Source of the DNA: Patescibacteria group bacterium
GTDB taxonomy: Bacteria; Patescibacteriota; Patescibacteriia; 2-12-FULL-60-25
Assembly (NCBI GenBank): GCA_018061755.1
Contig: JAGOTP010000004.1
Location: forward strand, 1-58,918
Length of the DNA: 58,918 nt
Reading direction: 5' to 3'
Part shown: positions 3,515 to 42,939 of the stretch, one piece after another
Numbering within the stretch: the first letter of the stretch is position 1
Layout: each line of letters opens with the position of its first letter
Program-made: the position numbers and the translations under genes
The notes under the pieces: generated by a model
Database searches by the model: none
What the model saw: the letters and a program-made list of their open reading frames with translations, nothing else
What the model was told of the DNA's origin: nothing

Positions 3515-3599
3515 AGCAATGTTGCGCTCTCATCATAAATGACTTACCGTAGCGATGTCGAGATTCAAGTAATAAATACCCGAGCAGGGCCTACTTTGC

Positions 3600-3709
3600 C
3601 TTGTTTGTTAGGAGTTATTGATGCCCCGTAAAGGGCACTCCTGATAAAACAAGCAGCAATGACTCCGGTCTTGTTACTTGGGTCTCGACACCTCAGGGGT
3701 GTCCTTTTT
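3600..3709 (+). ncRNA. Candidate small structured RNA or leader with terminator
   Basis: Three nested stems are visible: CTTGTTT/AAACAAG (3600-3606 with 3647-3653), AGGAGT/ACTCCT (3610-3615 with 3637-3642) and GCCC/GGGC (3623-3626 with 3633-3636). A second hairpin, GACACC/GGTGTC at 3687-3703, is followed by TTTTT. Together they look like a structured domain plus intrinsic terminator, 31 bases before the ATG at 3740. It could be a free small RNA or an attenuator for the zinc-ribbon gene. It matches no RNA family I know. Confidence 0.5.
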
Positions 3710-3739
3710 GTTATGCCCCATTAACTCACTCATGCATCT

Positions 3740-12646: not shown

Positions 12647-12694
12647 AATCCCCCGTCGACCAGTCAAGCTTACGCTTGCGGTCGGCGGGGGATT
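12647..12694. terminator. Bidirectional terminator hairpin, 15-bp stem
   Basis: AATCCCCCGTCGACC (12647-12661) pairs with GGTCGGCGGGGGATT (12680-12694) over 15 positions with a single G-T. It separates two convergent genes. A second small hairpin, GTGCGG/CCGCAC, lies at 12701-12718, in the 3' untranslated part of the kinase transcript. Confidence 0.75.
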
Positions 12695-12733
12695 GGCCAC
12701 GTGCGGGGAGTGCCGCACGGCCTCGTTCTTGAG

Positions 12734-14365
12734 CTAGTGCCAGTAGCTCGGTAGTCGGATGACGTGAGGACGGAGGGGAAGGTGCTGGCGGCAGCCTTCC
12801 GGGAGGTCGGTGGGAGCACTACCCGGGAAGATGCGATCTCGGGTGTGGAGCGTGTTGCACCAATACCTCCGCCGTTCTTCACTCAGGCTATCCCAGTTCC
12901 TGCGTAGCCAGGCGTTTTGCAGAGCCTGAGAAGTGGGAGCGGGAGGAGGGCCCCCGACGTTGCCGAAGGGGGATGTTGAAGGCCTGATCGGGTAGCCGAC
13001 CGGATCGACGGATGCAGCTGGAGGTGGGGTGACCTCGTTCGGCGGCTCCTCTGGCGGATCCGTGGGCTCAGGTCGTCGGTTGCGGGTGCCCCGTCGAGCG
13101 TGGCGTCCGCGCCTTGAGGGCTCGCGTCCGCCGTCTTCGTCGACTGCACTGTCAGTCGTCTCTCCGGCGTCGCCTTCGCCCGCATCCGTTGCCACGATGG
13201 CTACGATCGGTTCGTGCGGCGTTGTTGATCCGGTGAGCGCGATGATTGCTCCGAAGTAGAAGACGGCGAACAGTGCGACGACTAGAACTACGGCGAGCCA
13301 GGATCTGATCAGCGACCAGCTCTTCGGGGGTTGACTCGCTCGAGGAGGTGATGATGACGGTGCGCCTTGAGCGCTATCCGTCTTCACCTCCACCTGAACG
13401 GTCTTGTCCCAGCGACTCGTCAGTCCAGCCGGCGGCAGGACTCCGCCTTGCGCTGCGACTGTGCCACCTGCTTTGAAGGTGTCGGAGGCGGCCGGTGCCG
13501 CAGGGCTGGTGGACGCTCGGGTCGCTGGTACCTTCTGCGAACCTGCCAACATGCGCAGGTACTGGTCCAGGTCACGGGCCAGGGGTTCTGCCGACGGGTA
13601 CTGCCCTTGCTGGTTGAGACAGAGTCCCTTCGAGATCATTGCCCACAGGCTGTCGTCAAGACCTCGCCGCTCCGGCAAGAACTTGCGGGAGCTGATAGCC
13701 TTGCCGATTTCAGTCCCGTTGAAGGGATATGCTCGAACCCCCGTCACCAGCTCGTAGAGGATGGCGGCGAGTGACCATGCATCGTCACGCGGTCCAGCGT
13801 CTTTCGTCGATTCGATCTGGGCAAGGCTGCAGAATTCCGGCGTGCCGAAGAAGACCCCCGTCCGTGTCGTTGCCTGGGTGTCATCTCGGAGTTTGGCGAT
13901 TCCGAAATCCAGCACCTTCACCTTGTCGTCTGACGTCAGGAAGATATTAGCCGGTTTCAGATCACGATGTGTGACGCTCTGTTCGTGAGCGTAGGCCACG
14001 ATCTGGGCGACATCCCGGATGATCTCGACCGCCTTGTAGGGGGAGAGTCGGTGTCGCGCGAGACGTGCGTCGAGCGATTCACCGATCAGGAGTTCCATGA
14101 CAAGGAAGAGGTTGCCCTCCGCCTCACCGTGGTCGATGTAGCTCACGATTCCAGTGCAGCCCTGTGACAGGCGCCTCAGGATCTGAGCTTCTTTGACGAA
14201 GCGTGCCCGGATTTCTCCGCGCGCCATCGAGCCGTACAAGACTTTGATGGCAACGAATTTCCCCGTCGGTTCGTGTCTCCCCTTGAAGACCCTGCCCATC
14301 CCTCCTTCTCCAAGGAGTTCGAGCAGGCGATAGTGTCCAACGCAGCTGCCTACGTCCAACTCCAT
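12734..14365 (-). CDS. Membrane Ser/Thr protein kinase, GC-rich, myxobacterial type
   Basis: The product is 543 aa from the ATG at 14365, which has a purine-rich SD region (CAGGGGTG). The kinase domain covers about 10-290: glycine loop GEGGMGRVF, Lys41 in VAIKVL, HRDLKPAN (133-140) and DFG (153-155). The APE-type motif reads SLAQIE instead of SPEQ, so that Glu is missing. A Pro/Ser/Ala linker is followed by one transmembrane helix (about 372-400), an external acidic/basic stretch and a short C-terminal domain with two Cys. Such kinases sense envelope signals. Strong GC bias, an SD sequence, its own promoter and its own terminator set it apart from neighbours and suggest acquisition from a high-GC donor. 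Confidence 0.88.
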   Translation of the reverse strand: MELDVGSCVGHYRLLELLGEGGMGRVFKGRHEPTGKFVAIKVLYGSMARGEIRARFVKEAQILRRLSQGCTGIVSYIDHGEAEGNLFLVMELLIGESLDARLARHRLSPYKAVEIIRDVAQIVAYAHEQSVTHRDLKPANIFLTSDDKVKVLDFGIAKLRDDTQATTRTGVFFGTPEFCSLAQIESTKDAGPRDDAWSLAAILYELVTGVRAYPFNGTEIGKAISSRKFLPERRGLDDSLWAMISKGLCLNQQGQYPSAEPLARDLDQYLRMLAGSQKVPATRASTSPAAPAASDTFKAGGTVAAQGGVLPPAGLTSRWDKTVQVEVKTDSAQGAPSSSPPRASQPPKSWSLIRSWLAVVLVVALFAVFYFGAIIALTGSTTPHEPIVAIVATDAGEGDAGETTDSAVDEDGGREPSRRGRHARRGTRNRRPEPTDPPEEPPNEVTPPPAASVDPVGYPIRPSTSPFGNVGGPPPAPTSQALQNAWLRRNWDSLSEERRRYWCNTLHTRDRIFPGSAPTDLPEGCRQHLPLRPHVIRLPSYWH

Positions 14366-14417
14366 GGTGTCACCCCTGTTTCCTCTTGGCTGTTTGTCCG
14401 TGTTGTGAAAAAGCTCT

Positions 14418-14492
14418 TTCGCCTGACAAAAACTCAAACCAGAGCTAGTGCAGGCGAACGCTACAGCCTAGCAAAAAATCAAAAAAAGTCAA
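14418..14492 (-). promoter_or_regulatory. Promoter and 5' leader hairpin of the kinase gene
   Basis: On the minus strand TTGACT (14492-14487), a 16-base spacer and TAGGCT (14470-14465) form a likely promoter. The leader then begins with a perfect 8-bp hairpin, TTCGCCTG (14418-14425) with CAGGCGAA (14451-14458). A stem at the very 5' end of the mRNA could protect it from decay. Confidence 0.6.
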
Positions 14493-16934: not shown

Positions 16935-16941
16935 ATAAACG

Positions 16942-37365: not shown

Positions 37366-37378
37366 TTGCGTCGTAAAA
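37366..37378 (-). repeat. Polar 13-bp motif copy 6 (exact, first right-arm copy)
   Basis: TTGCGTCGTAAAA on the plus strand, the reverse complement of the consensus. It extends to CGTTTTA, so the central AAAACGTTTT is itself palindromic. Confidence 0.75.
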
Positions 37379-40385: not shown

Positions 40386-42191
40386 TCAGCCGTTCTTTTG
40401 AGCGTCACGCTTGCGTTCGAATTCCTTCAAATACTGTTTGCGAATACGGAGCGATTTTGGTGTGACTTCGAGCAGCTCGTCTTCTCCCAGGTATTCCAAC
40501 GCTTCTTCTAAGCTCATGTCGCGTGGGGTATCGAGACCTTCGGCGACACCGTCACCCTTCGAGCGCATGTTGGACAGTTTCTTTTCTTTACAGACGTTGA
40601 CGGCCAAATCTTCTGGTTTAGCGTTCTGACCGATGACCATACCTTCGTAGACATCGACACCAGGACCGATAAAGAGCTGACCACGTTCCTGAGCAGCCTG
40701 AAGACCATAGGTGTTTGAGGTACCGGTCTCGTGCACGATGAGCGAGCCATGAGGAGCGCCGTCGATGGAACCAACGTGTGGCTGGTAGCCCAAGAAAAGG
40801 GTGTTGATGATGCCTTGGCCACGGGTATCCATCATGAATTCGGTGCGGTAACCGATCAACCCACGAGTTGGAATGATGAACTGGAGGTAACCGGTACCAT
40901 TTTCCATACGCATATCCTGCATTTCTCCCTTGCGGCGTCCCATCTTTTCGATGACGGATCCGGTCACACCTTCTGGACATTCGATCGAAACTTCTTCGAA
41001 TGGTTCCGTCTTCTTACCAGCTTCCTCTTTGAAAATAACCTGTGGGCGTGACACCTGAAGTTCGAACCCTTCACGACGCATACGTTCGATCAAAATCGAC
41101 AGGTGCAATTCGCCACGACCAGAGACAATGAAACAACCCTCTCCCCCACCAGATTCGACACGTAGAGCGACGTCGTTCTGCAATTCACGCTCCAAACGCT
41201 CTTTGATGTTACGCGAAGTGGAATACTGACCTTCGTTTCCAGCAAAAGGCGAGGTATTGACGCCGAAGGTCATTTTCACGGTTGGTTCCTCGATCTTGAT
41301 AACCGGCAAGGCTTCTGGATTCTGCGCATCAGCGATTGTTTCTCCGATGTTGATGTTGGCGACACCGGCGAAGGAAACGATATCTCCAGCCTGAGCTTCC
41401 TGGATTTCAGCACGACCCATACCGACAAATCCCATGATCGAGGTGATCTTGGATGGTGTCTGCTTGCCATCGCGGTCGATCCACATGACGTTGCCTGGTT
41501 TAAAGACACCACGCACGACGCGACCAATAGCCATTTTACCCTTATAGTTATCGTAGCTCACGTTTGCGACAGACACTTGAAGTGGACCAGTGGAATCGTT
41601 CTTAGGAGCTGTGACTTCTTTTAGAATCGTATCGAAAATTGGCGTAACACCTGTCATCGTCGAGAGATCTGGTTCAAGTCCAGCCTTCCCCTGCTTAGCT
41701 GACGCGTAGACAACCGGGAAATCCGTCTGTGCATCAGAAGCGCCGAGCGTAACGAACAAATCAAATGTCTGGTTCAAGACCCAGTCTGGACGGGCGTCTG
41801 GCTTATCGATCTTGTTGATGACGAGAATGATGCGGTGACCAGCCTCAATGGCTTTTTTCAACACGAAACGCGTCTGAGGCATCGGACCTTCTTTGGCGTC
41901 GACCAAAAGCAAGACACCGTCGACCAAGTTCATGATGCGTTCCACTTCTCCGCCGAAGTCAGCGTGGCCTGGCGTGTCTACAATGTTGATCTTGGTATTC
42001 TTGTAGAGAACGGCAGCGTTTTTGGCCAAAATCGTAATCCCACGTTCACGTTCCAGCTCGTTGGAATCCATGATCGTTTCTCCTTCCAAACCGCTCTCGC
42101 GGAAGGTATCGGACTGCTTCAAAAGAGCGTCGGCCAGGGTGGTTTTACCGTGGTCAACGTGGGCGATGATGGCGATATTGCGGATATCCAT
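40386..42191 (-). CDS. typA: GTP-binding protein TypA/BipA
   Basis: A ribosome-associated translational GTPase used in stress and late ribosome assembly. The 601-aa product starts at ATG 42191 ([18 protein letters not shown]); the frame is open further upstream but without typical residues. G motifs: AHVDHGKTT (G1), G2 threonine in [17 protein letters not shown] (G3), NKIDKP (G4) and the SAK-like YASAKQG (G5). The C-terminal TypA domain has [20 protein letters not shown]. Length is normal. Confidence 0.95.
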
Positions 42192-42305
42192 AGAAGTAGA
42201 GGTTGGTCTAGATAAAAACAGGCGCCGTTGCCGGCGTAACTGGGCGAAATGATAGATGAAAACCGGCTTCACGTCAAAGGAGACGATCTGGAACCGAAAG
42301 GTCAT

Positions 42306-42600
42306 TAAAAACGCGAAAGGGCTCCCCTAGGTTGGGAAGCCCTGCGAAAGGCGACGAAGAGTGTTCGCCAGCCGGTGAGGTAACCGGATCCGGACTACCT
42401 CCCGCTCATGACCAATTTCGTTGGCACACTGGGAGGAGGGACCAGGCGCCTACGAGTACAGCAGCGGATGGTGAGACGCTACTGCACAGTCTCAAGAGCA
42501 GAGAAGGATTGACGATGGGGAGGCATCGCTGTCCAAGGCTCTGCTCAAGGAGCGGGAGGTAATCCGGACGGAAGCCGTTGCCCGTCTCGCACTCTTCCGG
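42306..42600 (-). ncRNA. Highly structured non-coding RNA upstream of typA
   Basis: Long-range pairing is clear. Helix A joins 42356-42363 with 42590-42597 (8 bp). Helix B joins 42388-42407 with 42550-42569 (18 of 20). Helix C joins 42496-42503 with 42539-42546 (8 bp). Small hairpins sit at 42372-42387, 42513-42528 and about 42570-42590. On the minus strand the block ends in a hairpin (AGGGCT/AGCCCT, 42318-42343) and five T, so I read it as a minus-strand transcript of about 300 bases. No conserved RNase P, tmRNA or SRP core words are seen; the stem-bubble-stem plan recalls 6S RNA but this is unproven. Confidence 0.55.
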
Positions 42601-42750
42601 GATGCGGTGGCTAATCGCCAGGAAGCGCAAAAACGTTCAACGAGCGTCTGCAGATACGGGTTCGAAACCCGATCTTAGCTTTAAGCTGCGCCTATTGTTA
42701 GCGAGTTTCTTCTCGAGCGTCAAGAAACTTCAAGACGAATATCCCTTCTT

Positions 42751-42789: not shown

Positions 42790-42870
42790 GAAGCCTGTTG
42801 TGTCCCTAGGGTCTCTGACCCTACCATTGGACGGACCGGGAGTGTTCCCGGCGGGATGACGAGGGCTTCC
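42790..42870. ncRNA. Folded RNA element A (multi-helix)
   Basis: GGAAGCC/GGCTTCC closes an 81-base element with a 7-bp stem. Inside are GTCCC/GGGAT, a 7-bp hairpin TAGGGTC-TCT-GACCCTA and a CCGG/CCGG hairpin. The fold is symmetric enough to be read from either strand. It does not match a riboswitch class I know. Confidence 0.45.
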
Positions 42871-42939
42871 GTGAGAGCAGATAGAGAACAAGTATTCCCT
42901 ACCTGTGAACGTACGCGTTAAACGTATTTTGAGCTTTTG

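Follow-up and report, generated by a model that had tools for sequence, protein, structure and literature searches.

Between typA (minus strand, start near 42191) and a family-1 glycosidase-like gene (plus strand, reading from about 43051), neighbors named from their motifs and from an earlier note, lies a strongly folded stretch of sequence. The question raised by this locus is whether that stretch is an RNA gene and, if so, what kind of RNA it encodes. The window, that is, the whole stretch of 58,918 nucleotides analyzed here, is one contig (C33) of a 1.15-Mb Patescibacteria genome that is 93% complete. Its TypA is 83% identical to a Candidatus Uhrbacteria protein and 81% and 77% identical to two more, which points to an Uhrbacteria-like host within the Patescibacteria.

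Strand, fold, and borders of the RNA

The sequence folds far more stably than expected by chance, as the earlier note had claimed, and does so preferentially on the minus strand. At positions 42300–42680 the minus strand has a predicted minimum free energy of −182.8 kcal/mol (z = −8.4; 0/100 shuffles as stable) and the plus strand a z of −4.6; for 42308–42690 the two values are −9.55 and −5.34, respectively (200 shuffles each). A core domain of 182 nt (42388–42569, minus strand), in which a 20-bp stem (42569–42550/42407–42388) closes a branched junction, reaches z = −11.12 on the minus strand versus −7.47 on the plus strand, with a mean pair probability of 0.97. When both strands of the 58.9-kb window were scanned for uninterrupted stems, with G-U pairs allowed and partners within 260 nt, this stem was the joint longest, and its 12 G-C pairs were the most among the four stems reaching 17 bp. 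Another uninterrupted stem of 20 bp lies at 3556–3690 (plus strand), inside the gap at 3515–3739 between two open reading frames. Ten parts of the RNA were tested separately, and in nine of them, all but the H4a arm, z is lower on the minus strand. Furthermore, four G-U pairs, two in the 20-bp stem and two in hairpin H4b, become A-C mismatches on the plus strand. A plus-strand reading of the RNA was rejected because of the z-scores of the fold and this asymmetry.

Several hairpins accompany the core, all on the minus strand. The 5′ hairpin H3 (42571–42648) is long and irregular (z = −2.86 on the minus strand, −0.20 on the plus strand). Arm H4a (42496–42546) carries a hairpin at 42529–42512 whose loop, CCUCCC (42523–42518), is unpaired with probability 1.0; this arm is not strand-specific (z = −3.97 on the minus strand vs. 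−4.26 on the plus strand). H4b (42456–42487) is predicted to form 11 bp, including its two G-U pairs, and H4c (42418–42455), predicted from the fold and from unpaired probabilities, has the apical loop UCCCUCCUC; together these two hairpins have z = −5.30 on the minus strand and −1.67 on the plus strand. H5 (42372–42387) has the loop UACCUC, again unpaired with probability 1.0. The earlier note had described nested helices of 8, 18–20, and 8 bp with side hairpins. The long stem is present at 20 bp, the predicted fold has side hairpins in and beyond it, and an 8-bp helix (GAGCAGAG/CUCUGCUC) lies inside it; in place of the second 8-bp helix we find only shorter or imperfect ones.

In a tiled scan of the window (588 tiles of 200 nt) the RNA region is not top-ranked, probably because tiling splits the 20-bp stem. 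The top tile covers a terminator at about 12650–12700, and other high-ranking tiles fall in a kinase-like gene and a tRNA. By eye, the product of this GC-rich gene (12734–14437, minus strand) is a serine/threonine protein kinase that has a membrane segment and a low-complexity tail; the gene is followed by that strong terminator and may be acquired. In the gap separating the RNA from the glycosidase gene, positions 42793–42880 form a compact multibranch fold (GGAAGCC...GGCUUCC) on either strand. Rfam has no convincing match to this fold, and the genome contains no further copy of it.

The predicted stand-alone gene spans about 380 nt (42307–42690, minus strand). We place its 5′ end near 42690 because a promoter-like site, TTGACG-N18-AACAAT or equally TTGACG-N17-TAACAA (42694–42723, minus strand), precedes it there; the extent first proposed, 42306–42600, is correct on its 3′ side and stops about 90 bases short on its 5′ side. 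Promoter-like sites number 3 in 951 bp versus 0.4 expected, and the one preceding the RNA has a weak −10 element and is weaker than the typA promoters. At the 3′ end lies a terminator-like hairpin of 10 bp (AGGGCUUCCC/GGGGAGCCCU; 42307–42346, minus strand; z = −4.16), after which a bulged UUC is followed by GCG pairing back with CGC at the base and then by U5 (42311–42307). A terminator had been noted here before; its hairpin and U-run are present, but its form is non-standard and it is absent from the list produced by a simple terminator scan.

Downstream of the RNA is a separate typA promoter, TTGACG-N17-TATCAT (42249–42277, minus strand). Sites of the form TTGAC-N-N15-19-TANNNT occur upstream of typA in 26/30 family loci (own included), which supports both the promoter type and a separate promoter for typA. 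Since typA has its own promoter downstream of the RNA, the RNA is better read as a separate gene than as a typA leader. Its position upstream of typA, as originally described, can now be given a strand, the minus strand, which is also that of typA. The region is GC-rich, as had been observed (58.7% vs. 50.5% for the window), and occurs once in its own genome. We consider it likely that the minus strand here carries a genuine, separate gene for an RNA, with expression and terminator activity presumed from the flanking sites. If real, it would offer a concrete and testable starting point, as a highly structured RNA encoded on its own in a genome of 1.15 Mb.

Known families and relatives

No known RNA or protein family accounts for the region. 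Searching Rfam over the window, a check that the earlier note had proposed, returned nothing above cut-off except two tRNAs, and the RNA has no strong match to any known family, consistent with its first description. RNase P RNA and tmRNA had been discounted on sequence words, and both are encoded elsewhere in the genome (RF00010 at C18:18614–19025, 172 bits; RF00023 at C30:135961–136385, 97 bits); RNase P RNA has no match in the window, and neither ARAGORN nor Rfam finds a tmRNA there. A tmRNA- or tRNA-like 3′ end on the plus strand (GGGTTCGAAACCC), proposed by eye, was dropped, as both programs match nothing at that site. Pfam has no match to the region and PHROGs reaches E = 0.26–0.31 at best, in agreement with the view that it is non-coding. 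Pseudogene frames were likewise rejected, with nothing in Pfam and E values no better than 0.26 in PHROGs.

The suggestion of a divergent 6S RNA is not supported. A 6S RNA consists of a closing stem, a large central bubble, and a terminal hairpin. The RNA studied here resembles it in being a long, helical, stand-alone RNA, but its unbroken 20-bp stem leads into a branched junction with no central bubble of the open-promoter-like kind, and its length is roughly double the 187 positions of the model. The 6S model (RF00013) matched 0/38 genomes, own included, and 5/14 controls, so that it can miss divergent 6S RNAs.

Searches for relatives returned essentially the RNA itself. In blastn comparisons with 96 genomes (own included), 56 gave matches at E ≤ 1, all but the self-match at most 39 nt long. 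These seemed to cluster on the stem and were set aside: of five read in context, four were contained in long open frames, and one lay at the beginning of such a frame. A covariance model of the core, which as a single-sequence model may miss diverged stems, found only the core itself in 41 family genomes (40 plus its own). With laxer filters in 37 genomes (36 plus its own) it added one 43-nt match (11.9 bits, E = 3.84), and in 35 relative typA loci it found two chance-level stretches and nothing convincing. Phages and plasmids searched contained no match to the RNA, and viral contigs no occurrence of one exact 22-mer from it. With no homologue, and no second genome of the genus, among the genomes searched, the RNA either occurs in its genus alone or has diverged too far to be recognized by these methods. 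Some relatives also have structured stretches upstream of typA (L026, L045, L029, L022, L042, L024, and others); compared by eye and with the covariance model, these share no common structure. In two Uhrbacteria genomes (G012 and G018, loci L022 and L024) typA is preceded by promoter-to-terminator units with CCUCC words, in which only one predicted loop holds CCUC and which contain, by eye, short frames of 26 and 8 codons preceded by Shine-Dalgarno sequences; we saw no similarity between these units and the RNA.

Loop words and a putative anti-Shine-Dalgarno mechanism

The composition of the loops suggests what the RNA might do. Its ten predicted loops are UAA, UCG, CACC, CCUCCC, UCUCACCAUC, UCCCUCCUC, UACCUC, CACUC, CUUUC, and AACCUA. 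In statistics framed after the loops had been inspected, they contain one G in 57 nt (0.018 vs. 0.139 in shuffles; 2/400 as low), three of them hold CCUC or CUCC (shuffle mean 0.50; 4/400 as many), two hold CCUCC (0.06 in shuffles; 2/400), and CCUCCC occurs three times in the RNA (0.42 expected; 0/500 shuffles). Three loops expose anti-Shine-Dalgarno words: CCUCCC in H4a, CCUCCUCCC in H4c, where the loop and the next two stem bases spell the word perfectly, and UACCUC in H5. These words are unpaired with probabilities of 0.75–1.0 (in H4c, 0.99–1.0 for the first CCUC/CUCC words and 0.75 for the last). One further copy of CCUCC lies hidden within the 20-bp stem, and CCUCCUCCC occurs three times in the whole window, counting both strands. 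Co-folding with three typed Shine-Dalgarno-like oligos, generic rather than this organism's own, gains 5.4 to 7.2 kcal/mol for H4a, 0–5.8 for H5, and 0–3.1 for H4c, a range that lends little weight there to H4c as a pairing loop. In a rough scan based on uncertain start codons, few of the 43 open reading frames checked are preceded by strong Shine-Dalgarno-like words, and targets may thus be few.

The best explanation we can offer is that the locus is a lineage-specific small RNA gene. Its minus-strand transcript would start from a promoter of its own at 42723–42694 and end with the bulged hairpin and U5 at 42307, shortly before the typA promoter, which is separate. A rigid scaffold formed by the 20-bp stem and the branched junction would then present nearly G-free, C-rich loops, of which CCUCCC, CCUCCUCCC, and UACCUC would base-pair with the purine-rich Shine-Dalgarno sequences of several target mRNAs, thereby blocking 30S binding, with the RNA acting in trans. 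We offer this stand-alone, trans-acting anti-Shine-Dalgarno small RNA, taken as a whole, as a tentative reading. Strand, fold, loop exposure, promoter-like and terminator-like sites, and the lack of a known family were computed; binding and repression of targets are what we infer from them, and the anti-Shine-Dalgarno mechanism is possible but far from assured.

Weak Rfam matches to 42300–42705 are headed by alpha-r14 (RF02344), the “cuckoo” small RNAs of rhizobia (NfeR1/SmelA075), at 19.4 bits against a gathering cut-off of 58.8 (E = 0.15); this match runs through the CCUCCUCCCA loop and has E = 0.47 in a longer stretch. In published descriptions, alpha-r14 is defined by the presence of CCUCCUCCC in the unpaired part of each of three hairpins (PMC10746234), and this loop word of alpha-r14/SmelA075 is called an anti-Shine-Dalgarno motif, the stems varying while the loops are kept (PMC10746234, PMC3927594). 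The RNA studied here shares the identical loop word and, like alpha-r14, appears to be a separate gene with its own promoter, here a promoter-like site. It differs in having one perfect word (H4c) and two partial ones (CCUCCC and UACCUC), where alpha-r14 has three or four perfect words, in its length (about 380 nt vs. 123 model positions), in its 20-bp scaffold stem, and in its host (Patescibacteria vs. Alphaproteobacteria). Because of the low score and the number of perfect loops we do not assign it to alpha-r14; it may work as that family does without belonging to it. RNA III is named in PMC3927594 among regulatory RNAs with at least partial anti-Shine-Dalgarno loop words. RNAIII of the Gram-positive S. 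aureus is, like the RNA studied here, large and highly structured with anti-Shine-Dalgarno loops; the latter has no Rfam relation to it and no recognized coding part.

More doubtful is the broader proposal of a new class, at the level of the genus, of large anti-Shine-Dalgarno RNAs with multiple loops in the Candidate Phyla Radiation. In it, a rigid scaffold of 380 nt would present several CCUCC loops, which would repress mRNAs or compete with the 16S tail, and the class would have evolved independently of, and convergently with, the rhizobial cuckoo RNAs. If true, such convergence would hint at which regulatory solutions minimal bacteria keep. The literature searched contained no paper on small RNAs or 6S RNA of Patescibacteria.

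Alternative explanations and a terminus-clustered motif

A structured RNA standing alone could also work by way of a protein, as a scaffold, or as a sponge (6S-like RNA polymerase binding, protein titration, or association with ribosomes), its C-rich loops being incidental or serving as protein contacts. We regard this as a serious though unproven contender. Most antisense small RNAs are smaller and less complex than one of about 380 nt with ten hairpin loops, and with no 6S match in this genome or its relatives, the 6S role is, as judged by RF00013, unfilled. However, the RNA has no internal bubble of the 6S type and that model does not match it, and a protein-binding role leaves the bias of the loops toward CCUC words unexplained.

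It is improbable that the region holds no functional RNA and is instead what is left of a mobile or foreign element, inserted as GC-rich DNA with inverted repeats, or a plus-strand gene that has decayed. Its elevated GC content and lack of homologues speak for this, and an open plus-strand frame of 65 codons (42481–42675) resembles a charged helix, some of whose words (KEREV, KALLKE) are shared, by eye, with chance DNA matches (L004, L007). Against it stand a single genomic copy, no match in phages or plasmids, the failure of Pfam and PHROGs to match, a best protein match of E = 0.028 among 56 relatives, the asymmetry of G-U pairs versus A-C mismatches, and the minus-strand stability of several independent domains.

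A cis-acting typA leader, such as an attenuator or riboswitch, is very unlikely: the RNA does lie on the typA strand, directly upstream, with a terminator-like hairpin at its end, but typA has a promoter of its own between that hairpin and its start codon, as do 26/30 family loci, and the covariance model found nothing convincing at the typA loci of relatives. The least probable reading is a DNA-level replication-terminus element (e.g., a cruciform or fork-trap accessory), raised because the window has its GC-skew maximum at 36–44 kb and because, some 65 bp upstream, there is a motif that clusters at the terminus; the strand asymmetry of the fold favors an RNA, and the motif also occurs in relatives that do not have the RNA element.

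This motif, close to TCTTGCGTCGTAAAACGTTTTA, is found five times in the window, at 16935 (minus strand) and at 37370, 38071, 42755, and 43441 (plus strand), versus 0.43 expected (16-base part, ≤3 mismatches). At ≤2 mismatches it is present in 34/41 genomes including its own, where a reversed-pattern control also matches in many. It occurs in other genera as well, several times on the typA contig, in contexts that are varied and in some cases shared. At one mismatch, 4/5 sites genome-wide lie on the window contig, which holds both the GC-skew maximum and a switch in gene strand near 37 kb, and the motif may be a candidate terminus site (Ter-, dif-, or matS-like).
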